Shown here: one piece after another, positions 1,932 through 19,870 of the stretch
How positions within the stretch are numbered: position 1 is the stretch's first letter
How the letters are laid out: each line of letters begins with the position of its first letter
DNA from: Ancylobacter polymorphus
GTDB lineage: Bacteria; Pseudomonadota; Alphaproteobacteria; Rhizobiales; Xanthobacteraceae
DNA length: 64,000 nucleotides
Reading direction: 5' to 3'
Assembly (NCBI RefSeq): GCF_022836935.1
Contig: NZ_CP083239.1
Span: 930,001-994,000 of the forward strand
The notes under the pieces: model-generated
Databases searched by the model: none
What the model was told of the DNA's origin: nothing
The model's input: the letters and a program-made list of their open reading frames with translations, nothing else
Program-made: the position numbers and the translations under genes

Positions 1932-2542
1932 GATGGGGTATGCTCCTGAAAATACTGGCAGATTGTCATGGCAAGCAGGGCACAGCTGGACGCACCGGGG
2001 TCCTCGTGACCGACGGAGCGTGCGCCGAGATAGGACGCCCGGCCGCGCCGCGCCAGCATCATTTCCGTCGCCTGCGCGGCCGTGCGCGCGCAGGCGGCGA
2101 TGCGGTCGGGCGCGGCGTGGCGCGCGATCTCCGCCTGCACGGGGTAGAGCACGTCGAGCAGCGTCTTGTCGCCGGGCCCGGAACGGCCGCGCCGGGCCAC
2201 CGCCGCGATCGCCCGTGCCAGGCTTGCGGCGAAATCGGTCCGACCGCCCTCATCGGCCAGACCCCGCCCCAGCTCCATCAGCAGCGTCCCGTAAAGGGGG
2301 CCGGCAGCGCCGCCGATCGTCATCACGAGCACCAGCCCGATCCGCTCCAGCGCCGCCGGCAGCGGCAGGGAAGCGATCTCGCTTCGCTCGCCATACACCG
2401 CCTCAAGCCCCCGCTGCATGTTGGTGCCGTGGTCGCCATCGCCGATGGCGCTGTCGAGCCGGCCAAGATGCTCGCAATGCCGCTCGATCTGCGCGCGGCA
2501 CAGCGCAATGAGCTGGGAGAGATCGGAAGCGTCGAGCGGCAT
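1928..2542 (-). CDS. dhaL: Dihydroxyacetone kinase ADP-binding subunit DhaL
   Basis: Nucleotide-holding subunit of PTS-type dihydroxyacetone kinase. It keeps tightly bound ADP/ATP and phosphorylates the substrate covalently held by DhaK. Visible family motifs are AIGDGDHGTNM (metal-nucleotide ligands), GGAAGPLYGT, GDKTLLD and GRASYLG. At 204 residues it matches stand-alone DhaL. There is no stand-alone DhaK; the only DhaK domain is in the upstream gene, which already has its own C-terminal DhaL. How this second DhaL is used is therefore an open point: it may partner the fused DhaK's substrate domain, or serve a related four-carbon ketose kinase. Confidence 0.9.
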   Translation of the reverse strand: MPLDASDLSQLIALCRAQIERHCEHLGRLDSAIGDGDHGTNMQRGLEAVYGERSEIASLPLPAALERIGLVLVMTIGGAAGPLYGTLLMELGRGLADEGGRTDFAASLARAIAAVARRGRSGPGDKTLLDVLYPVQAEIARHAAPDRIAACARTAAQATEMMLARRGRASYLGARSVGHEDPGASSCALLAMTICQYFQEHTPS

Positions 2543-2566
2543 CGTTCTCCTCCCTCGCCGGGTTCT

Positions 2567-4201
2567 TCAGGCGCCTGCGGCCAGCGCCTCGAACACCCGC
2601 GCCACCGCCACCGCGCCGGGATCGGGCGATCCCTCTAGCTCCCGCGCGGCGACATAGGCCGCGCGCCCGGCCCGCGCCCGCGCCATCGTCCGCGTCGCCT
2701 CCGCACCGGCCGCCGCAGCAGCGGCGGCGGCCGCGAGATCGCCGGCGGCCAGCGCTTTCAGCGCGGGATCGAGCGCGTCGATCATGGTGCGGTCGCCGGG
2801 TACCGCGCCGCCATAGAAGACCACGCGGTCAAGGCCGGCGAGCAGGGCGGAAGCCAGATTCTTTCCTTCCCCCCGCGCCTGCCCGGCGGCGGTGAAGAAG
2901 ATGGACAGCAGGACGCCGCTCGATCCGCCCATGGCGGTACCGAGACCCGCCCCAATGGCCTTCAGCGTGGCGGCGGCATCGGCCAGCGGCAGATGAGGAA
3001 GAGCGTTCAGAGCGAAGCGGGCACCGGTCGCGACGGTGCTCCCGGTGTCGCCGTCGCCGGCGCGGGCGTCGAGCCGGTTCAACTCCTCCTCCAGCCCGAC
3101 AAGCGTCGTGCAGACGCGGCGGATAACCGCTTCGGTGGCCGCGTCGGCGCTGGCGGCAACGTCCGTCGCGCGCGGCGCGGTCGGCGCCGCCTCAATCGCC
3201 ACCGTGCCGGGAGGCACAGCCGGCCGCCACGCCAGCGGCTCGGCCGCTGCGGTCAGCGCCGCCTCGCGCGCCGGGTCGAGCTTGAGGTAAGACAGCGAAA
3301 AGCCGTTCATGTTCAGGGCGGTCATCAGCGGCGCCGGCCCGATGACCAGCTTCACCCCGCGCCCCAGATCGGAGGCCAGCAGAGCCTCGGCGATCAGACT
3401 CATCTCCAGAGGCGGCACGGAACCGAGATTGTTGATCAGCAGCGCATAGGCGGCCGCGGGATCGAGGCGGGCGCCGAGGCGTTCGTGCATCAGCGCGACT
3501 ATGTCGCTTGCCGGCAGAAGCGGAATGCGTTCCACGCCGGGCTCGCCATGGATGCCGAGGCCGAGTTCGCCTTCCTCCGCCCCCAGCCGCCCCTCGAAAG
3601 GCTGGCCGGGAATCGAGCAGGAGGACAGCGAGACGCCGAGCGAGGCGATGTCGGCCGCTGCGGCTCGGGCGGCGGTCGCAACAGTCGCCAGGTCCGCGCC
3701 GGTCTCGGCGAGATGGCCGGCGATCTTGTGCACGAACAGCGTTCCGGCCACCCCGCGCGGCTGCGGAATGTCCGGCAGGGCGATGTCGTCGGCCACAATC
3801 GCCATTTCGACCTTGTAGCCTTCGGTGCGGGCGCGCTCGGCGGCGAGGCCGAAATTCAACCGGTCTCCCGTGTAGTTCTTGACGATGAGGAGGCAGCCGG
3901 GCGCGCCGGTGACGGCGCGGATGGCGGTGAGCACGGCCTCAACACTCGGTGAGGCGAAGATCTCGCCGGAGACAGCGGCGGTAAGCAGCCCGCGGCCGAC
4001 GAAGCCGGCATGCGACGGCTCGTGGCCCGCGCCGCCGCCGGAGATGACGGCAACCCTGGACTTGTCCCAGTCCGCGCGCAGCACGACCTTGATGTCGGGA
4101 TAGGTGTCGAGCCGGGCCAGCCGACCGGGGGGTGTCGTGCGCAGAAGCCCGTCCAGCGCCTCGGTGACGATGCTATCCCGCCGGTTGAAAAAGTGTTTCA
4201 T
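2567..4201 (-). CDS. dhaK: ATP-dependent dihydroxyacetone/tetrulose kinase, DhaK-DhaL fusion
   Basis: Phosphorylates dihydroxyacetone or a related triose/tetrulose. It is a 544-residue two-domain protein. Residues 1 to about 335 are the DhaK substrate domain, with GGGAGHEPSHAGFVG at 55-69 and the histidine that binds substrate as a hemiaminal in LGIHGEPG (H218). A Pro/Ala-rich linker follows. The DhaL nucleotide domain has GDGDTGSTVATG, GGSSGVL and GDRTMIDALDP. This is the architecture of ATP-using kinases (Citrobacter/yeast type), not of PTS-type DhaK. I chose the ATG at 4201 (MKHFFN) because a purine-rich ribosome site precedes it; an in-frame ATG 36 bases upstream is possible. The gene follows an ABC importer and precedes DhaL, DhaM, HPr and EI. 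An erythrulose-type kinase is a real alternative. Confidence 0.9.
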   Translation of the reverse strand: MKHFFNRRDSIVTEALDGLLRTTPPGRLARLDTYPDIKVVLRADWDKSRVAVISGGGAGHEPSHAGFVGRGLLTAAVSGEIFASPSVEAVLTAIRAVTGAPGCLLIVKNYTGDRLNFGLAAERARTEGYKVEMAIVADDIALPDIPQPRGVAGTLFVHKIAGHLAETGADLATVATAARAAAADIASLGVSLSSCSIPGQPFEGRLGAEEGELGLGIHGEPGVERIPLLPASDIVALMHERLGARLDPAAAYALLINNLGSVPPLEMSLIAEALLASDLGRGVKLVIGPAPLMTALNMNGFSLSYLKLDPAREAALTAAAEPLAWRPAVPPGTVAIEAAPTAPRATDVAASADAATEAVIRRVCTTLVGLEEELNRLDARAGDGDTGSTVATGARFALNALPHLPLADAAATLKAIGAGLGTAMGGSSGVLLSIFFTAAGQARGEGKNLASALLAGLDRVVFYGGAVPGDRTMIDALDPALKALAAGDLAAAAAAAAAGAEATRTMARARAGRAAYVAARELEGSPDPGAVAVARVFEALAAGA

Positions 4202-4270
4202 GGCCGTCTTCCCTTCGTTCGACGCGGCCTCCGGCACGGCTGCCTTCCGCCCTCAACGCACGTTGTCGGC

Positions 4271-5287
4271 TTAGATAAGCCTTTGGCCATCCTGGCCAAA
4301 ATAGAGTGGATTCTTCAAGATCAGGCTGACGCTGTCGCCGGGCGCCACCGCCATGTCGGGATCGGCGAGGGTGACCAGCTTGTGCGCGCCAAGGCGGATA
4401 TGCAGATGGTTCTGGTCGCCAAGATGCTCGATCCAGTCCACCCGCGCATTGCCGCCCTCTCCGGGAAGGAGGACGATGTGCTCCGTCCGCGCGCCGATGG
4501 TGCGGGTGCCCGGCGGCATCGGCACGTCAGGGACGAGGCCGACGGGAAGAAGATTGATGTGCGGCTGGCCGAGCCGGGCCGCGACATGGAGATTGGCCGG
4601 GCTGGCATAGATCTCGCGGGGCGTGCCGATCTGTACCAGCCGCCCCTCGGCGAGAATGCCGATGCGGTCGGCCATGGTCATGGCCTCGATCTGGTCATGG
4701 GTGACATAGAGCAGCGTCGCGCCGAGTTCCTTCTGGATGCGCTTCAGTTCCAGCCGCAATTCGCCGCGCAGCTTGGCGTCCAGCGAGGAAAGCGGCTCGT
4801 CCATGAGGTAGATGGACGGCCGGCGGACCAGCGCCCGGCCGATCGCCACGCGCTGCATCTCACCGCCGGAGAGGCGGGTGGAGCGGTTCTCCAGCTTGTG
4901 GTCAATGCGCACCATCTTCGCCACCTCCCGCACCCGTGCGTCGATGGCGGCACCGTCCATGCGCCGTGCCGGGGAACGCAGCGGAAAGGCCAGGTTCTCG
5001 TAGACGGTGAGGTGCGGATAGAGCGAATATTGCTGAAAGACGAAAGCCACGTCGCGGCTTGCCGGCGCGACCCCCGCCATGGGCCGCCCGCCAATGCTCA
5101 CCGTGCCGGCATCGGGCGTCTCCAGCCCGGCGATGAGCCGAAGCGTGGTGGTCTTTCCGGCGCCGGTGGGGCCGAGCAGAACCACGAATTCCCCATCCGC
5201 GATAGCGAGATCGATGCCATCGCCGGCGCGCTTGGCCCCGCCCTTGCCGAAGCTCTTGGTGATGCCCTTGAGCGTTACGTCAGCCAT
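4271..5287 (-). CDS. ABC importer ATPase (carbohydrate/polyol type), second of pair
   Basis: Nucleotide-binding subunit of the importer encoded upstream in the same operon. Walker A is GPTGAGKTT, the signature is LSGGEMQR, Walker B/D-loop is YLMDEPLSSLD, and the switch histidine is in YVTHDQIEA, so all catalytic elements are intact. A C-terminal TOBE-like regulatory region follows (VGLVPDVPMPPGT). The ATG at 5287 gives 338 residues and overlaps the end of the preceding ATPase gene by 8 bases. Having two different ATPases per importer, as in the neighbouring glp system, suggests a heterodimeric NBD pair. Confidence 0.93.
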   Translation of the reverse strand: MADVTLKGITKSFGKGGAKRAGDGIDLAIADGEFVVLLGPTGAGKTTTLRLIAGLETPDAGTVSIGGRPMAGVAPASRDVAFVFQQYSLYPHLTVYENLAFPLRSPARRMDGAAIDARVREVAKMVRIDHKLENRSTRLSGGEMQRVAIGRALVRRPSIYLMDEPLSSLDAKLRGELRLELKRIQKELGATLLYVTHDQIEAMTMADRIGILAEGRLVQIGTPREIYASPANLHVAARLGQPHINLLPVGLVPDVPMPPGTRTIGARTEHIVLLPGEGGNARVDWIEHLGDQNHLHIRLGAHKLVTLADPDMAVAPGDSVSLILKNPLYFGQDGQRLI

Positions 5288-6392
5288 GGCGGGCCTCCTG
5301 GCGCAACGCGCCCTCGTGCAGGGCGGAAGGAATGACGCGGCCGGAGCCGGCATCGAACAATGACAGCCTGTCGCTCTTGAAGGTGAGACCGACCGGCTCG
5401 CCGATGCGGTAGCTCTGCTCGGCAGCAAGCCGGGCGCGCACCAGCCCGCCCTCCGTCTCCACGGTCACGATCTGGTTGGTGCCGAGATATTCGCTGCCAT
5501 AGACCGCGCCGCGCAGCGGCGAGGCGTCCAAGAACCGCACATGCTCGGGACGCACACCCAGCGCCAACGGGCCGGGTGCAACATCCGCGCGCAGCTCCGG
5601 CATCGCCACCTCGGCCGCGCCGATGCGCGCCGTGCGCGCCCCCCGCGCCAGCCCGCCGGTGAAGCGGATGAAGTTCATCGGCGGCGAGCCGATGAAATCA
5701 GCGACATACATGGAGGCGGGCCGGTCGTAGATTTCCTGTGGCGTGCCGAACTGCTCGATCACGCCGTGGTTCATCACCGCGATCTTGTCGGCCATCGCCA
5801 TGGCCTCGATCTGGTCATGAGTGACATAGACGGTGGTGGCGTGGATGCGGTTATGCAACTCGCGCAGTTCGCGCACCATCACCTCGCGGAACTCGGCGTC
5901 GAGCGTGCCGAGCGGTTCGTCCATGAGGAAGCACATCGGGCGGCGGACGATGGCCCGCCCAAGCGCCACGCGCTGGCGATCGCCACCGGCGAGCCCGGAA
6001 ACGGGGCGGTCGAGAATATGGTCGATCTGCAGCAGGCGCGCCGTCTCCTCGACACGCGCCTTGATCTCCGCCTTCGGCACGCTCTGCGCGAGGAGCGGGA
6101 AGCCGATATTCTTGCGCACATTCATATGCGGGTAGAGCGCGAAGAGCTGGAAGACGAAAGCGATGTCGCGCTCGCTGGCGCGCTTGTAGGTGACGTCTTC
6201 TCCGCCCAGGCGGATGGTCCCTCCCGTCGGCAGCTCCAGCCCCGCAATCATTCGCAGCGTGGTCGTCTTGCCGCAGCCGGAAGGACCGAGCAGGGCGAGG
6301 AACTCGCCATTCTCGACGGTGAAGCTCGAATCCTGCACGGCGACGAACTCGCCGAAAGCCTTGCGCAGGTTCTCGACCCTGATCTCGGCCAT
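5280..6392 (-). CDS. ABC importer ATPase (carbohydrate/polyol type), first of pair
   Basis: MalK/UgpC-like ATPase of 370 residues. Walker A is GPSGCGKTT, Q-loop VFQLFALYP, Walker B CFLMDEPLGTLD, and the switch histidine is in YVTHDQIEA. The signature reads LAGGDRQR instead of the usual LSGGQ-QR, a Ser-to-Ala and Gln-to-Asp change in the motif that contacts ATP across the dimer. The C-terminal half carries the TOBE-type domain (LGVRPEHVRF). It lies 4 bases after the small membrane protein gene and overlaps the second ATPase gene. Probably forms a heterodimer with that second ATPase. Confidence 0.93.
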   Translation of the reverse strand: MAEIRVENLRKAFGEFVAVQDSSFTVENGEFLALLGPSGCGKTTTLRMIAGLELPTGGTIRLGGEDVTYKRASERDIAFVFQLFALYPHMNVRKNIGFPLLAQSVPKAEIKARVEETARLLQIDHILDRPVSGLAGGDRQRVALGRAIVRRPMCFLMDEPLGTLDAEFREVMVRELRELHNRIHATTVYVTHDQIEAMAMADKIAVMNHGVIEQFGTPQEIYDRPASMYVADFIGSPPMNFIRFTGGLARGARTARIGAAEVAMPELRADVAPGPLALGVRPEHVRFLDASPLRGAVYGSEYLGTNQIVTVETEGGLVRARLAAEQSYRIGEPVGLTFKSDRLSLFDAGSGRVIPSALHEGALRQEARHG

Positions 6393-6396
6393 GCGC

Positions 6397-6618
6397 CTAC
6401 TCCGGGAATTTGGACACGATCATGAACATGAACGTGCCGGCGAGAAGGGTGACGAGGGAATAGGTGTAGAGCACAAGCGCGAAGGGCTGGAACAGCATGA
6501 GGAAGCCGAGGCCGATGATGGTGACGGCAACCGCCTCCATCGGCCCGCGCCGCAGGAAGAAGGGGCGGCGGGGCCTCACTGGCGAGGGGCTGTGGGGGGC
6601 GAGGACAGGATCGCTCAT
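6397..6618 (-). CDS. Small two-helix membrane protein in ABC operon
   Basis: A 73-residue protein with a basic N-terminal stretch (PVRPRRPFFLRRG) followed by two closely spaced hydrophobic segments (about residues 28-48 and 50-68). Its ATG overlaps the stop of the upstream permease (ATGA), and the ATPase gene starts 4 bases after its stop, so it is cotranslated with the transporter. The glp operon of this window carries a different small membrane protein, GlpU, at the equivalent place between permeases and other components. I do not recognise a named family. It may be an accessory or assembly subunit of the importer; this is inference from position. Confidence 0.8.
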   Translation of the reverse strand: MSDPVLAPHSPSPVRPRRPFFLRRGPMEAVAVTIIGLGFLMLFQPFALVLYTYSLVTLLAGTFMFMIVSKFPE

Positions 6619-7568
6619 TTGCGCACCGCGCCGAAAGTGATGCCGCGAAGCAGCTGCTTGCGCAGCAGGATGGTGAAGACGAGGATCGGCACCAGGAAGA
6701 TGGTGGTACCCGCCGCCACCGCCGGCCAGTCCTGCCCGCCCTCGCCGATGATGGTGGGGATGAAGGGCGGCGCGGTCTGCGCGCTGCCGGAGGTGAGCAG
6801 CGAGGCGAAGGCGTATTCGTTCCAAGCGAAGATCAGGCAGAAGATGGCGGTAGCGGCAATGCCCGTGGTCGCCTGCGGCAGCACCACCTTGCGGAAGGCC
6901 TGCAGCCGCGAATAGCCGTCGATCATCGCCGCCTCTTCATACTCGCGCGGGATCTCGTCGATGAAGCCCTTGAGCAGCCACACGGCCAGCGAGACATTCA
7001 CCGCCGTGTAGAGCAGCATCATCCCCAGTGCGGTGTCGGAAAGGCCGAGCTGCCGGTACATGAGGTAGATCGGGATCGCCACCGCGATGGGCGGCATCAT
7101 CCGGGTGGAGAGGATGAAGAACAGCAGATCATCCGCCAGCGGCACCTTGAAGCGCGAGAAGCCATAGGCCGCCAGCGTGCCGAGCCCGACCGCGAGGAAG
7201 GTGGCCCCGAAGGCAATGATCAGCGAATTGGTGAAGCGCGGCAGGAAGTTGGACGGACCGGCGATCACCATGTTGCGCTCGCGCGTGACCGCGTCGCACA
7301 GGTTCTCCGGCGGCGGAAGGGATGCGATGTATTCCGGGGTCTGCCGCGTGCGCGTGGTGAAGAGGTTGCAGTAGCCTTCCAGCGACGGCGTGAACAGGAT
7401 CTTCGGCGGGTAGGAAATCGAGTCCGGCGGGGACTTGATCGAGGTGAGGAAGATCCACACCAGCGGGATCATGGTGATGACCGCATAGAGAATGACCAGC
7501 GTCGCGGCGATGCGCTTGGAACGAGCGCTCGGCTCGACGACCGAATGGGCGGTGTTTACCGAGCTCAT
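6615..7568 (-). CDS. ABC importer permease, MalG-like
   Basis: Inner-membrane channel subunit of 317 residues with about six hydrophobic segments. The cytoplasmic EAA loop that docks the ATPase is visible (EYEEAAMIDGYSRLQAFRKV). A long periplasmic loop follows the first helix (around the YPPKILFTPS segment), which is typical of the second permease of carbohydrate uptake class 1. The ATG at 7568 overlaps the stop of the upstream permease gene as ATGA; in-frame sequence upstream of it is Arg-rich and belongs to another frame of that gene. Confidence 0.93.
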   Translation of the reverse strand: MSSVNTAHSVVEPSARSKRIAATLVILYAVITMIPLVWIFLTSIKSPPDSISYPPKILFTPSLEGYCNLFTTRTRQTPEYIASLPPPENLCDAVTRERNMVIAGPSNFLPRFTNSLIIAFGATFLAVGLGTLAAYGFSRFKVPLADDLLFFILSTRMMPPIAVAIPIYLMYRQLGLSDTALGMMLLYTAVNVSLAVWLLKGFIDEIPREYEEAAMIDGYSRLQAFRKVVLPQATTGIAATAIFCLIFAWNEYAFASLLTSGSAQTAPPFIPTIIGEGGQDWPAVAAGTTIFLVPILVFTILLRKQLLRGITFGAVRK

Positions 7569-8533
7569 CGCTGTTTCACCCTGTTGAGCGCCTTGACGTA
7601 GATGTTGGCGAGGCCGAACACGGCGACGAAGAGAACGATGGCGAAAGCCGATGAGCGCCCGGTCGCCCACGCTTCGAAGGCGTCGCGTTTCAGCGCGATG
7701 GAGGCGACCTCTGTGGTCGAGCCCGGCCCGCCGCCGGTCAGCAGGTTGACCATGTCGAACATCTTGAAGTTCTCGATGCCGCGGAACAGCACCGCCAGCA
7801 TGATGAAAGGCAGCGCCATCGGCACGGTGATCGACCAGAACTGCCGCCAGTTCGACGCGCGATCGACTTCGGCCGCTTCATAGATGTAGTCGGGAATGGA
7901 GCGTAGCCCGGCGAGACAGATCAGCATCACATAGGGCGTCCACATCCAGGTATCGACGATGATGATCGCCCAGGGCGCCAGGTTCACGCTGCCGAGCATC
8001 TGGATCTCGGAGGTGGGGATGCCGGTGAGGAACGAAACGGCATAGGCGAACAGGCCGATCTGCGGCTCATAGAGGAACCGCCAGAAATTGCCGACCACGG
8101 CGGGCGACAGCATCATCGGGATGAGGATGAGCGTCGTCCAGAACGCATGCCCCCGGAACTTGCGGTCGATGAGATAGGCCAGCGCGAAGCCGATCACCGT
8201 CTGGAGAAGGATGGTCCAGAACACGAAATGCGCCGTGGTCTGCATCGAGGCCCAGATGTCGGGATCGTTCAGCACCCGCGAATAATTGCCGAGGCCGACA
8301 TTCTTGACCTCCGCATTGGGGCGGTTGGCGCGGTAATTGGTGAAGGACAGGTAGATCGCCCAGAACAACGGGAAGATGTTGATCGCGAGCAGCAGCGCGA
8401 TGGTGGGCGCGATGAACAGCCAGGCAATCGCCTTGTCGGAGAGCGCCCGCACCCGCCGCGCGAGTGGTTCCGGGGTTGCCCGCACCGCCGCCTCGGCGGC
8501 CTTGTCGGCATAAGTGTGTGGGGATGTCGTCAC
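7565..8533 (-). CDS. ABC importer permease, MalF-like
   Basis: Inner-membrane channel subunit of 322 residues. The first helix is near residues 36-57 (AWLFIAPTIALLLAINIF), five more follow, and the EAA loop reads YEAAEVDRASNWRQFWSI. It pairs with the MalG-like permease encoded immediately downstream with a four-base overlap. It is separated from the binding-protein gene by 214 bases holding a hairpin-rich repeat, which would let the binding protein be expressed in excess over the membrane subunits. Confidence 0.93.
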   Translation of the reverse strand: MTTSPHTYADKAAEAAVRATPEPLARRVRALSDKAIAWLFIAPTIALLLAINIFPLFWAIYLSFTNYRANRPNAEVKNVGLGNYSRVLNDPDIWASMQTTAHFVFWTILLQTVIGFALAYLIDRKFRGHAFWTTLILIPMMLSPAVVGNFWRFLYEPQIGLFAYAVSFLTGIPTSEIQMLGSVNLAPWAIIIVDTWMWTPYVMLICLAGLRSIPDYIYEAAEVDRASNWRQFWSITVPMALPFIMLAVLFRGIENFKMFDMVNLLTGGGPGSTTEVASIALKRDAFEAWATGRSSAFAIVLFVAVFGLANIYVKALNRVKQR

Positions 8534-8620
8534 GCGCGCCCTCGCTGGCGTCGGCGGAAAAGGGGCGATCCGGTGGGGTCTCGGGATGAGCCGGATCGCC
8601 CGCGGGAGGAAGCGGAGCCT

Positions 8621-8730
8621 ACTCCCTCTCCCCGCCGGGGAGAGGATGGGGCAAGGGGTGCGGGGCGCTCAACGCGCGGGTCACCCCCTCACCGACCCGC
8701 TTGGCGGGCCCCTCTCCCGGGCGGGAGAGG
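8621..8730. repeat. REP-like palindromic repeat downstream of binding-protein gene
   Basis: Two perfect 9-bp stems made of the same CCTCTCCC-type sequence sit at 8625-8645 and 8711-8730. They are separated by GC-rich sequence that includes ACCCCCTCACC. The layout is that of an intergenic palindromic repeat. A similar CCCTCTCCCCG hairpin lies at 52665-52690, also just after a binding-protein stop codon. Likely effects are mRNA 3'-end protection or partial termination; not demonstrated here. Confidence 0.7.
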
Positions 8731-8747
8731 ATCAGATGGTCGCGATC

Positions 8748-10070
8748 TCAAATCTTGCCGTCTTCCTTGAAGATCTCGGTCCAGTCCTTTTCGAGACCGT
8801 CGAGAGCCTCCTTTGCCGTGCCCTTGCCGGCGACGACATAGTCATGCACCCGCTTCTGCATCGCCTGCAGCAGCTCGGCGTAAGAAGGCTCGGCCCAGAA
8901 GTCCTTCACGATCGCCATTGATTCAAGGAAGGCGGGCGCATAGGGCTGGCTGGTCTTGAAGTCGGGCGCGTCGACCACCGCCTTCAGGCAGGAATAGCCG
9001 CCAAGCTGCCACCACTTGGCCTGCACCTGCGGCTGGGCGAACCATTTGATGTACTGGAGGGCGGCGTCGCGCTTGTCCGAGTAGGACACCACCGAAATGC
9101 CCTGCCCGCCGAGCTGAGCGTAATGATACTTCTCCGCCGGGTTGGGGAAGAAGCCGATGCGGTCGCCACCGACCTTCTCGTCCTTGTAGAGGCCGGGCCA
9201 GGTGAAGGCGAAGTTCATCTGCATCGCCACCTGCCCAGATTTGAAGGCGTCGGCCGATTCCACCATATAGACGTTGGACGCGCCGGGCGGGGTGCAGCAA
9301 TCGTAAAGCGCCTTGTAGAATTCGAGGCCCTTGATCGCATCCGGCGAGTTCACATAGCCCTGCATGTCATAGGGCTTCTTGGGGTTGTCATACATGAAAC
9401 CCCAATCGTACAGGACGTTGGTCACGCCCATGGTGATGCCTTCCGAACCACGCTCGGTATAGATCGAGGCACCGTAGACGGTCTTGCCGTCGATCTGCCG
9501 CTTCTGGAAGAACTCGGCGATCTGCTTGAGCTGGTCATAGGTCTTCGGCGCGTCGAGGTCCCAGCCGTACTTCGCCTTGAATTCCTTCTGGATTTCCGGG
9601 CGCTGGAACCAGTCCTTGCGGTAGGTCCAGCCCACCACGTCGCCCATCGCCGGCAGGGCCCAGTAATTCGGCGTGTTCTTCGGCCATTCGGAATAGCCGA
9701 CGACCGTCGCGGGAACGAAGTCATCCATCTTGATGCCTTCCTTCGCGAAGAAGTCGTTCAGCTTCACATAATGCCCGTTCTCCGCCGCGCCGCCGACCCA
9801 CTGGCTGTCGCCGATGATGAGGTCGCACAGCTTGCCGCGCGAATTCAGTTCATTGAGGAAGCGGTCGGCATAGCTGGTCCAGGGAACGAACTCGAACTTC
9901 ATGTCGATGCCGGTCTTGGCGGTGAAGTCCTTGGACAGCTCCACCAGCGCATTGGCCGGGTCCCAGGCCGCCCAGCACAGCGTGAGCTGCTCGGCCTTCG
10001 CCGCCTGCGGCACGGACATCAGCGCGCAAACGGCCGTCGCCCCCAGAAGGGGTATCCACTGCTTCAGCAT
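8748..10070 (-). CDS. ABC importer periplasmic solute-binding protein, family 1
   Basis: Periplasmic receptor of the importer encoded downstream. The start ATG at 10070 follows an excellent GGGAGGAG ribosome site. The signal peptide (LKQWIPLLGATAVCAL, then an AKA-type cleavage region) leads into a 440-residue protein with the MalE-like layout, for example IYTERGSEGITMG and GGQGISVVSYSDKRDAALQYIKWF. The ligand is unknown. Divergence from the glycerol operon and linkage to Dha-type kinases make a triose, tetritol or other short polyol the best guess. An in-frame upstream ATG at 10109 would disrupt the signal peptide and is less likely. Confidence 0.92.
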   Translation of the reverse strand: MLKQWIPLLGATAVCALMSVPQAAKAEQLTLCWAAWDPANALVELSKDFTAKTGIDMKFEFVPWTSYADRFLNELNSRGKLCDLIIGDSQWVGGAAENGHYVKLNDFFAKEGIKMDDFVPATVVGYSEWPKNTPNYWALPAMGDVVGWTYRKDWFQRPEIQKEFKAKYGWDLDAPKTYDQLKQIAEFFQKRQIDGKTVYGASIYTERGSEGITMGVTNVLYDWGFMYDNPKKPYDMQGYVNSPDAIKGLEFYKALYDCCTPPGASNVYMVESADAFKSGQVAMQMNFAFTWPGLYKDEKVGGDRIGFFPNPAEKYHYAQLGGQGISVVSYSDKRDAALQYIKWFAQPQVQAKWWQLGGYSCLKAVVDAPDFKTSQPYAPAFLESMAIVKDFWAEPSYAELLQAMQKRVHDYVVAGKGTAKEALDGLEKDWTEIFKEDGKI

Positions 10071-10531
10071 GCTCTCCTCCCAGAACGAGGGGCTTTCTGC
10101 CCCTTTCATGGCTCACCGTGGCGCAGGACGCGCCGAAACGATTTAGCTTTGTGTTTAGTTATGCGCCGATCGCTCAACATGACAAGAGCAAATCGTTGCT
10201 GCAGCGCAGCGGTGCCGGGAGACCGCACGCCCGCCGTCGCCAGCTCGGACGAAGGTTCGCTTATGATTTGAGGAAGTGCGCACCCTCAGGCCGATAAACG
10301 CGACGAGGCCGGGATGTCGCACCCCCGCCGATGCGCAGCGTCGCCGAGGGCGACCAGCGGCTCGGTTGGCATGCCAGCGATATGCCACGGAATTGCTGCA
10401 ATGCACCCAATCGAAGGTTCGCTTCTTTCGATTTGACGCTATTGCGACCAAAAACACTTTCGTATAGCGTCGATATGAAGATAAAAACGAAAGCGCTACT
10501 GACCTAAAGCAGCGCATCGGGAGAGACGCCT
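10071..10531. promoter_or_regulatory. Divergent regulatory region between ABC-Dha operon and glp operon
   Basis: The 461-bp non-coding region must hold promoters for both operons. Its right half is AT-richer than its surroundings. CTTTCG occurs at 10425-10430 and 10457-10462, and its inverse CGAAAG at 10488-10493, spaced 32 and 31 bases, that is about three helical turns each. A 13-bp direct repeat CGAAGGTTCGCTT occurs at 10250-10262 and 10412-10424. TTCG-type half sites are characteristic of DeoR/GlpR-family operators, so this is a candidate operator array. No convincing sigma-70 pair was assigned. Short open frames here look spurious. Confidence 0.6.
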
Positions 10532-12082
10532 TTGAACGCTCGCACTCGGGACGAGATTTACGACCTTGCGATCATTGGCGGGGGCGTGAATGGCTGCGGC
10601 ATCGCCCGCGATGCTGCCGGGCGCGGCGTCTCCGTCGTCCTGCTGGAACAGGGCGATTTCGCCGGCGCGACCTCTTCCGCCTCCACCAAGCTGATCCATG
10701 GTGGGCTGCGCTATCTCGAACATTACGAGTTCCGGCTGGTGCACGAGGCGCTGGCCGAACGCGAAGTGCTGTGGGCGATTGCCCCGCACATCATCTGGCC
10801 GCTGCGCTTCGTGCTTCCGCACCACGCCGGCCTGCGCCCCGCCTGGCTGCTCCGGCTTGGGCTGTTCCTCTACGACCATCTCGGCGGGCGCAAGCTTCTG
10901 CCGGCCACGCGCTCGCTCGATCTGGCGCGCGACCCTGCCGGCCGGCCGCTGCGCGAGGGCTATCGCCGCGCCTTCGAATATTCCGACTGCTGGGTGGAGG
11001 ACAGCCGGCTAGTGGTGCTGAACGCACTCGACGCGGCCGAGCGCGGCGCCGACATACGCCGGAGCACCCGCGTCGTCTCCGCCAGCCGCGAGCCGGAATT
11101 CTGGCGTATCGAGTTCGAGGAAGGCGGCGCACACCGGGTGGTCAATGCGCGCGCGCTGGTCAATGCCGCCGGCCCCTGGGTGCATGACGTGCTGGCGCAT
11201 GTGCTGCGTGCCAATTCGCCCGCCAATGTCCGGCTCGTGCAGGGCAGCCACATCGTCGTGCCCCGGCTCTACGACCATGACCGGGCCTACATTTTCCAGA
11301 ATGCGGACGGTCGTATCATCTTCGCCATTCCCTATGAGCAGGACTTCACCCTCATCGGCACCACCGACCGCGACTTCGGCAGCACGCCGAGCCGGCCCGT
11401 CGCCAGCCAAGAGGAGATCGCCTATCTCTGCGCCGCTGCGAGCGAGTATTTCAGTCGCCCGGTGACGCCTGGCGACGTGGTCTGGACCTATTCCGGCGTC
11501 CGGCCGCTCTATGACGATGGCGCGTCCAAGGCACAGGAAGCCACGCGCGATTATGTGCTGGAACTGGACGACCAGGACGGGCGGGTGCCGGTTCTGTCCG
11601 TCTTCGGCGGGAAGATCACCACCTATCGCCGCCTCGCCGAGCACGCCATCGAAAAGCTGACCCCCTATCTGCCGGGCGCCTCCAAGACCTCCTGGACCGG
11701 CACGGCGCCGCTGCCGGGCGGGGATTTCGGCGTGCATGACCAACCGCGCATCGTCGCCCAGCTGCTGCGTGCACATCCCTGGCTCGATGAACGCCTCGCC
11801 CGCCGCCTGGTCGTCGCCTATGGTACGCGCGCCATGCGGATCCTCGACGGCGCCCGGTCGGCTGGCGATCTCGGGCGCGTGTTCGGCGCCGACCTGACCG
11901 AGGCGGAGGTCCGCTACCTGATGCGGGAGGAGTGGGCACGTACCGCCGAGGATGTGCTATGGCGGCGCTCCAAGCTCGGCCTGCGCTTCTCCGCTGAGGA
12001 GACGGCCGCGCTTGATGCCTTCATGGCCGAATGCGTGGCCCCGGCCGCAGCATCGGCCTCGCTGCGGGGGATTGCGCAATGA
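10532..12082 (+). CDS. glpD: Aerobic glycerol-3-phosphate dehydrogenase
   Basis: FAD-dependent enzyme that oxidises glycerol 3-phosphate to dihydroxyacetone phosphate and feeds electrons to quinone at the membrane. The FAD-binding motif IIGGGVNGCGIARDAAGRG lies near the N-terminus. SSASTKLIHGGLRYLEHYEF, TDRDFG and VFGGKITTYR are family landmarks. The length of 516 residues is normal. The start is a TTG at 10532 preceded by GGGAGAG. It is the first gene of an eight-gene glycerol operon, and the next gene's ATG overlaps its stop. Same order as the rhizobial glpDSTPQUVK cluster. Confidence 0.96.
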   Translation: MNARTRDEIYDLAIIGGGVNGCGIARDAAGRGVSVVLLEQGDFAGATSSASTKLIHGGLRYLEHYEFRLVHEALAEREVLWAIAPHIIWPLRFVLPHHAGLRPAWLLRLGLFLYDHLGGRKLLPATRSLDLARDPAGRPLREGYRRAFEYSDCWVEDSRLVVLNALDAAERGADIRRSTRVVSASREPEFWRIEFEEGGAHRVVNARALVNAAGPWVHDVLAHVLRANSPANVRLVQGSHIVVPRLYDHDRAYIFQNADGRIIFAIPYEQDFTLIGTTDRDFGSTPSRPVASQEEIAYLCAAASEYFSRPVTPGDVVWTYSGVRPLYDDGASKAQEATRDYVLELDDQDGRVPVLSVFGGKITTYRRLAEHAIEKLTPYLPGASKTSWTGTAPLPGGDFGVHDQPRIVAQLLRAHPWLDERLARRLVVAYGTRAMRILDGARSAGDLGRVFGADLTEAEVRYLMREEWARTAEDVLWRRSKLGLRFSAEETAALDAFMAECVAPAAASASLRGIAQ

Positions 12083-13188
12083 CACTCGAACTCGCCCATG
12101 TCTCGCGCAGCGTGCGCGGCGTTCCCTTCATTCGCGACGTGTCGCTGCGGCTGGAGCGCGGCAGCCTGAATGTGCTGCTGGGCGCCACCCTCGCAGGCAA
12201 GACCAGCCTCATGCGGCTGATGGCCGGCCTCGACGCCCCGACCTCCGGCCGGGTGCTGGTGGACGGGCGCGACGTCACCGGGCTGTCGGTGAAGAAGCGC
12301 AGCGTCGCCATGGTCTACCAGCAGTTCATCAATTATCCCGCGCTTACCGTCTATGAGAACATCGCCTCGCCACTGCGGGTGGCCGGACTGCCGCGCGCGG
12401 AGATCGAGGAGCGCGTGCTTTCGGCGGCGAAACTGCTGAAGCTCGATCCCTATCTCCAGCGCACGCCGCTGGCGCTCTCGGGCGGCCAGCAGCAGCGCAC
12501 CGCCATCGCCCGAGCGCTGGTGAAGCGCGCCGATCTGGTGCTGCTCGACGAGCCGCTGGCCAATCTCGACTACAAGCTGCGCGAGGAACTGCGCGAAGAG
12601 CTGCCGCGCATCTTCGCCTCGACCGGCGCGGTGTTCGTCTACGCCACCACCGAGCCGACCGAGGCGCTGCTGCTCGGCGGGCACACCGCCACGTTGCTGG
12701 AAGGCGCGATGACCCAGTTCGGCCCGACCGCCGAAGTCTATCGCCGCCCCGCCAACCTCGCCACGGCACGGGTGTTTTCCGACCCGCCGCTCAATGCGCT
12801 GCGCGTCACCAAGCAGGGGCACACGGTGCTGATGGAGAACGGCACCGTGTTGCCGGCACATGGCCCGCTGGCTCACGCCTCGAACGGCGCCTACACGATC
12901 GGCGTGCGCGCGCACCATCTCGAAGTGGAAGATGTTGCCACCGCCGAGCGTATCGCCGGCGACGGCCTCATCCGGCTCGGCGCCACCATCGCGGTGACCG
13001 AGGTGACCGGCTCGGAGAGCTTCCTGCACATGGATATGGGGGCGGAACGCCTCACCGCGCTGGTTCCCGGCGTGCGGCGCCTGGAACCCGACGCGCCGGT
13101 GGAAGTGCTGATCGACGCCCGCCACATCCTGCTGTTCGACGCCGAGGGCCGGAGCGTCGCGCCCGTCCGCGATGCGGCGGCGGCCTGA
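12079..13188 (+). CDS. glpS: Glycerol ABC importer ATPase GlpS (switch-histidine replaced)
   Basis: One of two ATPases of the glycerol importer, 369 residues. Walker A is the unusual GATLAGKT (35-42), the signature LSGGQQQR (133-140) is intact, and Walker B is LVLLDE to E158. The position of the invariant switch histidine, normally YVTHDQ, reads YATTEP (T191). GlpS can therefore donate a good signature motif but should hydrolyse ATP poorly at its own Walker site. Its partner GlpT has the reverse defect. A C-terminal TOBE-like region is present. The ATG overlaps the glpD stop codon. Confidence 0.95.
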
Positions 13189-13199
13189 GGGAGAGCATC

Positions 13200-14302
13200 A
13201 TGGCCAGCATCACCCTCGACGGTCTCGCCCATGCCTACCGGCCTGACCCGCGCGGCCCGCAGGACTACGCGCTGAAAGAGATCAACCATGTCTGGCGGCA
13301 GGGCGGCGCCTATGCGCTGCTCGGGCCGTCGGGCTGCGGCAAGACCACGCTGCTGAACATCATTTCGGGCCTCGTCATCCCGACGCGCGGGCGCATCCTG
13401 TTCGACGACCGCGACGTCACGCGGCTGCCGACCGAGGCGCGCAACATCGCCCAGGTATTCCAGTTCCCCGTCGTCTACGACACGATGACGGTGCGCGAGA
13501 ACCTCGCCTTCCCGCTGAAGAACCGCAAGATGCCGCGCGAGGCGATCGCCCGCCGCGTCGAGGAGATCGCCAGCCGGCTCGACATGAGCTCGGTGCTCGA
13601 CCGCAAGGCGTCCAACCTCACCGCCGACGCCAAGCAGAAGATTTCGCTCGGGCGCGGGCTGGTGCGCGAGGATGTCGCCGCCATCCTGTTCGACGAGCCG
13701 CTCACCGTCATCGACCCGCATCTCAAATGGCAGTTGCGCTCGTCGCTGAAGGAGCTCCACCGGGCGCTCGACCTGACCATGATCTATGTGACGCATGACC
13801 AGACGGAGGCGCTGACCTTCGCTGACACCGTCGTCGTCATGCATGACGGCGCGGTGGTGCAGACCGGCACGCCGGAAGAGCTGTTCGAGCGCCCCGCCCA
13901 CACCTTCGTCGGCCATTTCATCGGCTCGCCGGGCATGAATGTGCTGCCGGCAAAGGTCGAGGGCCGCACCGCCCATGTGGGCGGCACCGCCATCGCGCTG
14001 GAACGGGCCTATCCCTCCCTGCCGGCAGGGGAACGGATCGAACTCGGCGTGCGGCCAGAATTCGCCACGCTTGCCAAGCCGGGCCACGGCCTGCCGGTGA
14101 AGGTGACGCGTATCGAGGATATCGGGCGCGCCCGCATCGCCCGCATCGAGATTTCAGGCAACCCGGCGGCAGCCATGGTCCCGGAAGAGCTGTCGCTCGA
14201 CGGCGATAGCGCCGGCCTGACGCTGGATCCCCGGCAGATCCACATCTACGCCAATGGCGTGCTGGTGCCCGGCGCGCCCGCCGGCCGCGAGGAAGCCCTG
14301 TG

Positions 14303-14303
<1 letters not shown>
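13200..14303 (+). CDS. glpT: Glycerol ABC importer ATPase GlpT (signature motif degenerate)
   Basis: Second ATPase of the glycerol importer, 367 residues. Walker A GPSGCGKT (42-49), Q-loop VFQFPVVYD, Walker B ILFDE to E166 and the switch histidine in YVTHDQ (H199) are all intact. The signature motif, expected as LSGGQ-QR, reads LTADAKQK at 140-147 and lacks both glycines. Paired with GlpS, one composite site is complete (GlpT Walker/His plus GlpS signature) and the other is degenerate. It starts 11 bases after glpS. It is not the E. coli glycerol-3-phosphate antiporter that shares the name. Confidence 0.95.
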
Positions 14304-15201
<898 letters not shown>

Positions 15202-15205
<4 letters not shown>

Positions 15206-16023
15206 GCGCCTCGTCCCACGCCTCCTCGCGCGGCGGCACCCTTGTCATGGTGCTGTATCTCGCCTTCCTGATCCTGCCGATCTACTGGCTCGTGAATATG
15301 AGCCTGAAGACGAATTTCGAGATCAATTCGGGCGTCACCCTGTGGCCGAACGACATCACGTTCGAGCACTATATCAAGATCTTCACCGACTCGAGCTGGT
15401 ACTCGGGCTACATCAATTCGCTGACCTATGTGGCGCTGAATACCGTGATCTCGATCACGCTGGCGCTGCCGGCGGCCTATGCCTTCTCGCGCTACAGCTT
15501 CGTCGGCGAGAAGCACCTTTTCTTCTGGCTGCTGTCAAACCGCATGGCCCCGCCGGCCGTGTTCGCCCTGCCCTTCTTCAATCTCTATTCGGCCATCGGC
15601 CTGTTCGACACGCCCTGGGCCGTGGCGCTGGCGCACTGCCTGTTCAACGTGCCACTCGCCGTGTGGATTCTCGAAGGCTTCATGTCCGGCGTGCCGCGCG
15701 AGATCGACGAGACGGCGGCCATCGACGGCTATTCCTTCCCGCGCTTCTTCGTGAAGATCTTCATGCCCCTGATCGCCAGCGGCATCGGCGTCGCGGCCTT
15801 CTTCTGTTTCATGTTCTCCTGGGTGGAACTGCTGCTGGCGCGCACGCTCACCGCCACCAACGCCAAGCCGATCGCGGTGACGATGACCCGCACCGTCTCG
15901 GCCGCCGGCATGGATTGGGGCCTGCTCGCCGCCGCCGGCGTGCTCACCATCATCCCCGGCGCGCTCGTCATCTGGTTCGTGCGCAACTACATCGCCAAGG
16001 GCTTCGCCCTCGGGCGGGTGTGA
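15202..16023 (+). CDS. glpQ: Glycerol ABC importer permease GlpQ
   Basis: MalG-type membrane subunit of 273 residues that pairs with GlpP. The first helix is at about 13-34, followed by a periplasmic loop (FEINSGVTLWPNDITFEHY). The ATPase-docking EAA loop reads REIDETAAIDGYSFPRFF. The ATG at 15202 overlaps the glpP stop as ATGA. Not related to glycerophosphodiester phosphodiesterase, which bears the same symbol in enterics. Confidence 0.94.
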
Positions 16024-16034
16024 GGAAGGACGGC

Positions 16035-16352
16035 ATGGAAAACGCTTCGTCGCCCTTCATGGAACGGCTCGCCGAGAACACGGCCTGGATGGCGTGGACC
16101 TGGCCGACGGCGGCGTTCTTCGCCGCCATCGCCGGCCTGCTCGCCATCTTCACCGTGCTGGCGCTGTGGCGGCCGGAGCGCGCGCGTGTCGGCGTGCTCG
16201 GCATTCCCACCACGCGCGGCGACCGGCTGTTCATCACGCTGCTCGGCAGCGCCTTTATCAACCTCGCCTGGCTCGCCCTGGTGGGACCTCATCTCGGTTG
16301 GGCGCTCGCGCTCTGCCTTGTCTACGCGCTGGCGGTGTTCCGCCTCGTGTGA
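16035..16352 (+). CDS. glpU: Small membrane protein GlpU of the glycerol importer (DUF2160-like)
   Basis: A 105-residue protein lying between the permeases and the binding protein, the position of the DUF2160 gene glpU in rhizobial glp operons. Three hydrophobic segments are visible (about 16-44, 66-83 and 85-103) with a basic loop WRPERARVG. The start ATG follows GAGGAAGGACGGC. Its molecular job is unknown; constant linkage to the transporter suggests an accessory membrane subunit. The match to the family is from memory of operon architecture and the helix pattern. Confidence 0.85.
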   Translation: MENASSPFMERLAENTAWMAWTWPTAAFFAAIAGLLAIFTVLALWRPERARVGVLGIPTTRGDRLFITLLGSAFINLAWLALVGPHLGWALALCLVYALAVFRLV

Positions 16353-16410
16353 AGTCGCCTAAGCGGCAGAAAGCCGCGTGATTTCTGGGAATGAACGGGA
16401 GGAAAGACCC

Positions 16411-18168
<1,758 letters not shown>

Positions 18169-18188
18169 TGCGGGTCCGCTGATCCAAT

Positions 18189-18216
18189 GCCGGAGCGCCC
18201 AAAAGGGCGCCCCGGC
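18189..18216 (+). terminator. Hairpin (attenuator-like) between glpV and glpK
   Basis: Arms at 18189-18200 and 18205-18216 form a 12-bp stem with one mismatch around an AAAA loop, 20 bases after the glpV stop. The following bases (TTCTGCG) are only weakly T-rich, so complete termination is unlikely. Attenuation or mRNA 3'-end stabilisation would raise glpV over glpK expression. Inferred from structure. Confidence 0.6.
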
Positions 18217-18367
18217 TTCTGCGTCCCGGACGCCCCCGCCGTCCGGGACGTTGTCTCGCCCGCCGCCGTCGCGGACGGCATGCCGCCCGACATAGACCAC
18301 GTTCCGCAGAGGTGGCACCTTGCACGCGCCGTCCTCGCCGGGATGACGCCTTTTAGCGGAGCGCCTC

Positions 18368-19870
18368 GTGACAACCCATCTTCTCGCGATCGACCAGGGG
18401 ACGACCTCCTCGCGTGCCATCCTGTTCCGGCCGGACACCTCCATCGCGGCACAGGCGCAGCAGGAGTTTCCGCAGCATTTCCCCGCTTCCGGCTGGGTCG
18501 AGCATGAGGCGGAAGACCTGTGGCAGACGACGCTCGCCACCTGCCGCGCGGTCATGGAACAGGCCGGCCTCACCGCCGCCGACATCGCCGCCATCGGCAT
18601 CACCAATCAGCGCGAAACCACCGTGGTGTGGGATCGCAAGACCGGCGCGGCCATCCACCGCGCCATCGTCTGGCAGGACCGCCGCACCGCCGAACTCTGC
18701 GCGAAGCTGAAGGCGGAAGGTCATGAGGCGCTGGTGCGCGAGCGCACCGGGCTGATCCTCGATCCCTATTTCTCCGGCACCAAGATCGGCTGGATTCTCG
18801 ACCATGTGCCGGGCGCGCGCGCCCGCGCCGAGCGCGGCGAACTCGCCTTCGGCACGGTGGACAGCTGGCTGCTGTGGAAGCTCACGGATGGTGCGGTGCA
18901 TGCCACCGACGCCACCAATGCCGCCCGCACCCTGCTGTTCAACATCCACACCGGTGGCTGGGACGACGACCTGCTGGCGCTTCTGCGCGTGCCGCGCTCC
19001 ATGTTGCCGCAGGTGAAGGACTGTGCCGCCGATTTCGGCACCACGGCCCCTCGTCTGCTCGGCGGCGCCATCGCCATTGGCGGCATTGCCGGCGACCAGC
19101 AGGCGGCCACCGTCGGCCAGGCCTGCTTCCAGCCGGGCATGATCAAATCGACCTACGGCACAGGCTGCTTCGCCCTGCTCAATACCGGGACCACCGCCGT
19201 CGTCTCGGAGAACCGGCTGCTCACCACCATCGCCTATCAGCTCGGTGGCAAGCGGACCTATGCGCTCGAAGGCTCGATCTTCGTCGCCGGCGCGGCGGTA
19301 CAGTGGCTGCGGGACGGGCTCGGCATCATCAATAACTCGGCCGAGAGCGAAGCGCTGGCCGATGCCGCCGATCCGGCCCAGCAGGTCTATCTCGTGCCGG
19401 CCTTTGTCGGCCTCGGCGCGCCGCACTGGAACCCCGATGTGCGCGGCGCGATGTTCGGCCTCACCCGCAATTCCGGGCCCGCCGAATTCTGCCTCGCGGC
19501 GCTGGAGAGCGTCTGTTACCAGACCGCCGATCTCATCGCCGCGATGAATGCCGACTGGGCGCGCTCGGGGGCCGGCGGCCATCGCACGCCGGTGTTGCGT
19601 GTCGATGGCGGGATGGTGGCCTCCAACTTCGCCATGCAGCGCCTAGCCGATCTGCTCGCCGCGCCGGTCGACCGGCCGGTGATTCGCGAAACGACGGCCC
19701 TCGGCGCCGCCTATCTCGCCGGGCACCAGGCCGGCATCATGCCGGCGCCGGGGCGCTTCGCCGATTCCTGGCGGCTCGACCACCGCTTCGATCCGGTCAT
19801 GCCGGCCGAGACGCGTGAGGCCAAGCTCGCCGGCTGGCGCGACGCCGTGCGCCGTCTCACCCTGCCCTGA
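18368..19870 (+). CDS. glpK: Glycerol kinase
   Basis: ATP-dependent phosphorylation of glycerol to glycerol 3-phosphate, the substrate of GlpD at the other end of the operon. FGGY-family landmarks are [14 protein letters not shown] at the N-terminus, [26 protein letters not shown], and [13 protein letters not shown] with TYGTGCF. The length of 500 residues is normal for GlpK. The start codon is GTG at 18368 with GGAG upstream. The gene is last in the glp operon and convergent with the diol dehydratase genes. Confidence 0.97.

Follow-up and report, generated by a model that had tools for sequence, protein, structure and literature searches.

GlpS and GlpT, two different MalK-type ATPases encoded side by side in Ancylobacter polymorphus, probably form a heterodimer in which all departures from the canonical ABC motifs gather in one composite site, with ATP split only at the other, intact site. 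The defects were confined to one of the two predicted shared ATP sites in all 85 orthologous pairs that we compared, and a single ATP-splitting site is therefore likely. We infer both the pairing and the hydrolysis at a single site from the protein sequences. The window, by which we mean the whole stretch of DNA analysed, spans 64,000 nucleotides.

The likely glycerol importer locus and its two ATPases

On the forward strand of the window, glpD (glycerol-3-phosphate dehydrogenase, 10532..12082, with a TTG start as listed) is followed by glpS (12079..13188), glpT (13200..14303), the permease genes glpP (14300..15205) and glpQ (15202..16023), glpU (16035..16352), glpV (16378..18168) and the glycerol kinase gene glpK (18368..19870). 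GlpU is a small membrane protein matching DUF2160 (PF09928, 111 bits). GlpV, 596 aa long, is the predicted substrate-binding protein; it has no Pfam match itself, and is 24% identical to a protein of a sister system that matches SBP_bac_8. This gene order is that of the GlpSTPQUV system of Rhizobium leguminosarum VF39, a glycerol ABC importer (Ding et al. 2012, through an excerpt of PMC7912956); that R. leguminosarum needs this system for glycerol is taken from the same excerpt, which makes no mention of an asymmetry between the ATPases. An annotated R. leguminosarum WSM1325 plasmid (L207) carries the same genes in the same order, glpD-S-T-P-Q-U-V-K, with 57% identity to the window protein for GlpS and 62% for GlpT. 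On homology and gene context, the window system is likely a glycerol importer.

Both ATPases combine an ABC_tran domain, a C-terminal OB/TOBE domain and a MalK-like fold, the features of the MalK-type (CUT1) class, although neither passes an NCBIfam equivalog or subfamily cut-off. In GlpT (367 aa), ABC_tran and OB_MalK score above their cut-offs; in GlpS (369 aa), ABC_tran does so and TOBE is barely above (22.9 vs 22.3). The two single-chain models have moderate mean pLDDT values (71.7 and 77.9), and the best PDB matches of both predicted folds are MalK-family structures.

In GlpS the signature is intact and the motifs in cis are defective. LSGGQQQR (residues 133-140, 12475..12498) was found in 85/85 orthologues, while the switch histidine is replaced by T191 (12649..12651), a position held by Thr in 80 and Ser in 5. 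Valine (V12, 12112..12114) occupies the A-loop aromatic position, where 84 of the 85 orthologues lack an aromatic residue and one has it. The Walker A motif reads GATLAGKT (residues 35-42, 12181..12204): its third position (T37) is Thr in 85/85, and its fourth-position Gly is lost in 80/85 and present in 5. The Walker A Lys (K41), the Q-loop Gln (Q81) and the catalytic Glu (E158, 12550..12552) are invariant (85/85).

GlpT shows the converse arrangement. Its cis motifs are intact, including Walker A (GPSGCGKT, residues 42-49, 13323..13346), the catalytic Glu (E166, 13695..13697) and the switch His (H199, 13794..13796; 85/85), and its signature and D-loop are defective. The signature reads LTADAKQK (residues 140-147, 13617..13640). 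Both glycines are gone in every orthologue, the first replaced by Ala (79) or Pro (6) and the second by Asp (84) or Ala (1); two distant relatives retain one of them in GlpT (LTAGEKQL at L205, LDAGRQQI at L266). The D-loop is altered to T-V-I-D (13704..13715) in 85/85. A sequence-only reading of this DNA had already described T191 beside the intact GlpS signature, and the intact Walker motifs and H199 of GlpT beside LTADAKQK, and both descriptions proved correct. The GlpS A-loop aromatic, the GlpS Walker A Gly and the GlpT D-loop are three further departures that it had not listed.

Conservation of the asymmetry among orthologues

We searched 398 Pseudomonadota genomes, calling GlpT at E<=1e-95 and GlpS at E<=1e-75. 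GlpT was present in 85 genomes and GlpS in the identical 85, each protein once at these cut-offs, and the GlpS gene directly preceded the GlpT gene in 84/84 fetched loci. The sample compared consists of the window pair and these 84; all 85 GlpS and all 85 GlpT sequences are distinct, with median pairwise identities of 49% and 54%, respectively.

Six features were scored for each composite site. The complete site, A, showed no departure in any of the 85 pairs; the degenerate site, B, showed six departures in 79 pairs and five in the other 6. A second set of 82 GlpS and 82 GlpT sequences, partly overlapping the first and retrieved with search patterns that included the start of the GlpT D-loop, gave Thr for His together with LSGGQQQR in 82/82 GlpS and a degenerate signature in 82/82 GlpT. 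Neither a His in GlpS nor an intact LSGGQ in GlpT occurred among the 85 pairs or in the second set (82+82). The conservation that the sequence-only reading proposed to test was thereby borne out, as was its proposal that the two sets of defects would complement each other in a heterodimer, leaving one composite site complete and one degenerate.

Such conservation across sequences that are all distinct refutes chance, decay or sequencing error as the source of the pattern. Pseudogene decay or an error peculiar to this strain has a negligible probability: nothing in the window speaks for it, and the nearest thing to a precedent is a split glpT frame on one Rhizobium plasmid (L206).

The same survey bears on whether GlpS and GlpT are partners at all. 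Each could instead work with another ATPase, as shared ATPases such as MsmX serve several type I importers (excerpt of PMC7658222), and this genome encodes far more than one hundred ABC domains, with 150 listed. We consider this very improbable, given the occurrence of the two proteins in the same genomes as single copies at the cut-offs, their constant adjacency and the complementarity of their defects. Pairing is further favoured because homodimers would have either two sites without His or two without LSGGQ.

A proposed model with one hydrolysing site

In the arrangement we propose, GlpS and GlpT would pair as a heterodimeric MalK-type ATPase. Following the assignment of ABC motifs to composite sites in an excerpt of a review (PMC7756269), site A would comprise the A-loop, Walker A, Walker B, Q-loop and His of GlpT with the LSGGQ of GlpS. 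Site B would comprise the A-loop, Walker A and switch residue of GlpS with the signature and D-loop of GlpT, and would still have the Walker A Lys, Q-loop Gln and catalytic Glu. The altered GlpT D-loop presumably belongs to site B; according to the same excerpt, D-loops also act for the dimer as a whole. Glycerol would be handed over by GlpV and pass through GlpP/GlpQ, and in each cycle a single hydrolysis event at site A would reset the importer. Site B might bind ATP weakly, or hold it without turnover, with a role in latching closure or in docking.

GlpS keeps K41, Q81 and E158 in every pair, and site B may therefore retain some hydrolysis. Carried further, this becomes the alternative that both sites split ATP, with site B merely slowed and the pair functionally near-symmetric; degenerate sites with a Glu-to-Asp change do still hydrolyse slowly (excerpt of PMC7756269). 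We regard this alternative as unlikely. A change of the His alone leaves <2% of the ATPase activity in MalK and HisP and <0.1% in HlyB (excerpt of PMC6222333), and in site B the partner signature has also lost its glycines in 85/85 pairs. Hydrolysis confined to site A remains our preferred reading.

Related importers and the origin of the pair

A sister importer was identified at five loci (L205, L239-L241 and L265). It is dehydrogenase-linked, was found also on a Streptomyces plasmid, and in 5/5 loci has Thr in place of the His, lacks the first signature Gly and carries LTVID. Its permeases share only ~29-32% identity with GlpP/GlpQ, as measured for L239. Because an importer with other permeases shares the pattern, the arrangement appears to predate the glycerol system, and the idea of a glycerol-specific adaptation is weakened. 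In our tree, GlpS joins its sister-system counterpart S' and GlpT joins T', both with 100/100 support and on long stems. The split of GlpT from T' is not clean, with 44% of bootstrap trees placing GlpT to one side of a branch. A tandem origin of GlpS from GlpT finds no support in the tree, which does not show S and T as sisters, but its deeper branches are weak. A link between GlpT and ATPase A1 of a neighbouring importer (83/84) is recorded as a lead only.

That divergent neighbour importer lies in the same window and provides a built-in, near-symmetric control. It has two different ATPases, both with the His in 23/23 loci; the A1 signature reads LSSGD or LTSGD in 5/23 and LAGGD in 6/23, and the A2 Walker A is GPTGAGKT in 21/23. 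Two ATPases therefore need no defective site. Opp-type pairs or fusions (L211, L212, L213 and L215) were likewise symmetric in the four cases read. Together these rule out the inference that two ATPases imply a dead site, and they leave unsupported the suggestion of the sequence-only reading that the degenerate site is the reason for keeping two different ATPases, as it is not needed to account for them.

A further alternative accepts the single engine but grants it no benefit: after duplication, once the heterodimer had become obligate, one site would have decayed neutrally and would now be functionless. The neighbour importer drifts mildly with the same polarity, and the like losses in importers of the Liv/Urt and RbsA types from the same genome (below) suggest an easy route. 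We nevertheless hold this account to be doubtful, though less so than hydrolysis at both sites. The replacement residues are themselves fixed, unlike the outcome of pure decay: in GlpT, T-V-I in the D-loop, K145 and Q146 (each 85/85) and D143 (84/85), and in GlpS, T37. This fixation argues for selection.

Comparison with known systems

The window system resembles the maltose importer MalFGK2 in the fold of both ATPases and in its two separate BPD_transp_1 permeases, as in CUT1 importers generally. In MalK, however, two identical subunits form two canonical sites (excerpt of PMC7756565), whereas GlpS and GlpT are two different ATPases that would have one canonical site between them. We found no report of one-site asymmetry in MalK-type importers in the open-access literature searched. 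A natural MalK-type importer of this kind would test, without mutants, how many ATP sites importers need.

The loss of the partner signature glycines (GlpT) and the change of the cis His (GlpS), each in 85/85, are the marks of a degenerate composite site. As in CFTR, TAP, TM287/288 and ABCG5/G8, the departures are spread over both NBDs and gathered in one composite site; the signature is likewise lost in the partner, and the His is lost as in TAP and CFTR (excerpt of PMC7756269). The parallel with CFTR, TAP and TM287/288 drawn by the sequence-only reading thus holds for signature and His and fails for the catalytic Glu, which GlpS retains. GlpS lacks an aromatic residue in its A-loop and has lost one Walker A Gly, but it keeps the Lys, which is replaced in ABCG5/G8. 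The GlpST system also falls outside the asymmetric type IV exporters, in which the membrane domain is joined to the NBD and a binding protein is absent, since its permeases are separate proteins and a binding protein is predicted.

Among importers, LivG/LivF- or UrtD/UrtE-type pairs of the window's own genome showed a one-site pattern in 9/9 pairs for which regular expressions captured both ATPases (L220, L222, L224 and L225, with one partner missed in each, are uncounted). The His is found in one partner, whose signature is without its first Gly, and the other carries SGG together with Gln or Glu in place of the His. These pairs lose only the first signature Gly, whereas GlpT loses both. In L203 and L219, UrtD/UrtE score above the NCBIfam cut-offs; L200 stays below them, with LivG/LivF as its best match. 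To our knowledge, no MalK-type C-terminal domain is expected in LivG/LivF or UrtD/UrtE. The same genome encodes two fused ATPases of the RbsA/NupO type, which we take to be CUT2 (L218 and L227): the first half has no signature and keeps the His, and the second keeps LSGGNQQ, has lost the His and has Arg for the Walker A Lys. They differ from GlpS/GlpT in their fused NBDs, in family and in that GlpS retains the Walker A Lys. Published work already describes RbsA and NupO as having a degenerate site (excerpt of PMC11466899).

We tentatively suggest, as a reading somewhat less likely than not, that GlpS/GlpT represent an ancient MalK-type branch of Pseudomonadota and Actinomycetota, including the sister importer, in which one site became a permanent non-hydrolysing latch, and that with Liv/Urt and RbsA there were at least three separate one-site origins. 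If so, one hydrolysis site per cycle would be the usual end point for such binding-protein-dependent importers once their ATPases differ. The sequence-only reading had called the arrangement unusual for a binding-protein-dependent importer. One-site asymmetry is unusual among MalK-type ATPases, but the label is not supported for binding-protein-dependent importers as a whole, since Liv/Urt, RbsA and NupO show it, which corrects the view of asymmetric ATP sites as mainly an exporter trait.

Motif asymmetry in the GlpS/GlpT pair

The glycerol operon occupies window positions 10532-19870 in the order glpD, glpS, glpT, glpP, glpQ, glpU, glpV, glpK, and the annotated operon on a plasmid of R. leguminosarum WSM1325 (L207) is identically ordered. 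The glpSTPQUV genes of the related R. leguminosarum VF39 operon are described as a glycerol importer in the available text of PMC7912956, and a similar gene cluster is induced by glycerol in a Ralstonia strain (PMC11223650, available text). The names GlpS and GlpT follow these papers and the sequence-only reading; motif names follow PMC7756269. Among the named matches listed, the closest GlpS homologues (92-94% identity) came from Ancylobacter, which was also among the sources of the closest GlpT homologues. GlpU (16035-16352) is a small DUF2160 membrane protein inside this ABC importer operon. GlpV (596 aa, 16378-18168) gave no Pfam match at E<=0.001, despite occupying the expected place of the binding protein.

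The sequence-only reading had described GlpS (12079..13188, plus strand) as having an intact LSGGQQQR signature with T191 in place of the switch histidine, and GlpT (13200..14303, plus strand) as retaining both Walker motifs and H199 with a signature, LTADAKQK, that lacks both glycines. Every residue it named was correct in the window sequence, and the asymmetry extends further: GlpS has V12 where an A-loop aromatic is expected, and its Walker A (GATLAGKT) is without the glycine at position four; the D-loop of GlpT is T-V-I-D, versus S-N-L-D in MalK. By the rule for which motifs form one ATP site (PMC7756269, available text), the composite site built from the GlpT nucleotide-binding motifs and histidine plus the GlpS LSGGQ (site A) is predicted to be complete, and the reciprocal site, of GlpS A-loop, Walker A and switch residue with the GlpT signature and D-loop (site B), degenerate. 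Single-chain structure models of both proteins gave MalK-family folds and were uninformative on the dimer.

Conservation of the asymmetry

GlpT (at E<=1e-95) and GlpS (at E<=1e-75) were searched for in 398 evenly drawn Pseudomonadota genomes (212 genera). Each protein was found in 85 of the 398 genomes; the genome lists were identical, with one match each, and covered 49 of the 212 genera. In all 84 loci other than that of Ancylobacter itself, all of them fetched, glpS lay immediately 5' of glpT and glpP came next. We scored six features per site: for site B, the A-loop, Walker A glycine and histidine of GlpS with the two signature glycines and the D-loop of GlpT; for site A, the A-loop, Walker A glycine, histidine and glutamate of GlpT with the two signature glycines of GlpS. 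All six site B features departed in 79 pairs and five in the other 6, and site A showed no departure in any of the 85. The replacement residues were themselves constant: T169, V170, I171 and K145 of GlpT and T37 of GlpS in 85/85, D143 of GlpT in 84/85, and P193 of GlpS in 82/85. K41, Q81 and E158 of GlpS were retained throughout (85/85). This orthologue alignment, of the kind proposed in the sequence-only reading, found the missing GlpS histidine and the degenerate GlpT signature fixed across 85 pairs.

The 120 closest homologues of each protein, with the query, agreed: the histidine was absent at the equivalent position in 121/121 GlpS proteins, and both signature glycines in 121/121 GlpT proteins. 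Another collection of named genomes, made up of 80 loci and L205-L207, contributed 81 GlpS and 81 GlpT in addition to L205 and the Ancylobacter row. It had threonine for histidine and LSGGQQQR in 82/82 GlpS proteins, and a signature without GG in 82/82 GlpT proteins (D-loop LTVID in 81, LTAID in 1); this set was retrieved with the patterns IAQVFQFP and [LM]FDEPLTV, and so selected on Q-loop and D-loop, and it overlaps the 398 genomes and is not independent of them (for example, the contigs of L121 and L134 are as long as those of G365 and G135). The glpT frame is split in Rhizobium leguminosarum Ta9k (L206, 6001-7071), as is glpS in a Burkholderiales MAG (L162); each is either a broken gene or a sequence error.

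Related importers

A GlpT-like protein from an Ensifer plasmid (L205), searched against 385 Alphaproteobacteria at E<=1e-100, returned 11 matches, eight within glp loci and three in a sister importer (L239-L241). A Streptomyces plasmid (L265) also carries the sister system, as do small alphaproteobacterial genomes. Its gene order (L239, L265) is a divergent GAF-type gene, a zinc-type alcohol dehydrogenase, a binding protein, two permeases, then the GlpS-like (S') and GlpT-like (T') ATPases. In all five sister pairs (L205, L239-L241, L265), S' has threonine for histidine and LSGGQQQR, and T' has the D-loop LTVID and lacks the first signature glycine; the second is absent in four of five, the exception being LTAGEKQL in L205. 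In the tree, S and S' formed one group and T and T' another (support 100/100 for both), with stem lengths of ~1.2 changes per column, so the ATPase asymmetry is probably older than the divergence of the glycerol and sister importers. A glp-type system of the actinomycete Nonomuraea gerenzanensis (L266; GlpV 66% and GlpP 63% identical) has alanine for histidine and the signature LDAGRQQI.

Divergent from glpD lies another importer with two different MalK-type ATPases (1928-10109, minus strand), beside dihydroxyacetone-kinase genes (Dak1/Dak2, Dak2); its substrate is possibly dihydroxyacetone or a related triol. Its ATPases A1 (5280-6392, minus strand) and A2 (4271-5287, minus strand) both retain the histidine in 23/23 loci. 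A2 has LSGGEMQR in all 23, with Walker A GPTGAGKT in 21 and GPSGAGKT in 2; the A1 signature varies (LSGGD in 12, LAGGD in 6, LSSGD in 4, LTSGD in 1) and its D-loop is LGALD or LGTLD. The drift is mild, with the polarity of GlpS/GlpT, and the site is retained. This importer perhaps resembles an early stage of the Glp asymmetry, and offers a natural control for it.

Other ATPase pairs of the genome

From 40 chosen stretches of the Ancylobacter genome plus the window, 48 ATPase frames were aligned. Three lacked the histidine (GlpS and two LivF/UrtE-like proteins) and four had a signature without GG (GlpT and three LivG/UrtD-like proteins). Motifs were complementary in 9/9 fully read pairs of LivG/LivF or UrtD/UrtE type (L200, L201, L203, L208, L209, L210, L214, L216, L219), of which L203 and L219 passed the UrtD and UrtE cut-offs, L200 was nearest LivG/LivF but under cut-offs, and the remainder were assigned from motif alone. 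The partner that has the histidine carries S/P/A-[HY]-G as its signature, and its counterpart has SGG, with Q or E in place of the histidine; these pairs look like another one-site importer family. Two fused RbsA-type proteins (L218, L227) follow the same complementary logic, with Walker A Lys replaced by Arg in the second half. Opp-type pairs or fusions were symmetric in four cases (L211, L212, L213, L215). Complementary asymmetry is therefore not rare across importers as a whole, and the earlier description of it as unusual in an importer holds only within the MalK type, where no further case was seen among the frames read.

Comparison with known systems

In MalK, changing His192 leaves <2% of ATPase activity, and HisP His211 changes act alike (PMC6222333, available text). 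For the reviewed exporters that have a degenerate site, the prevailing view is that ATP stays bound there as glue and that one hydrolysis resets the transporter (PMC7756269, PMC7756565, available text). Because of these precedents and the composite-site rule, site A would be the working, hydrolysing site of GlpS/GlpT, and site B a latch holding ATP. A degenerate site had already been noted from sequence in RbsA and NupO (PMC11466899, available text); in the open-access literature, with most subscription papers outside this scope, we found no report of asymmetry in GlpS/GlpT or another MalK-type pair.
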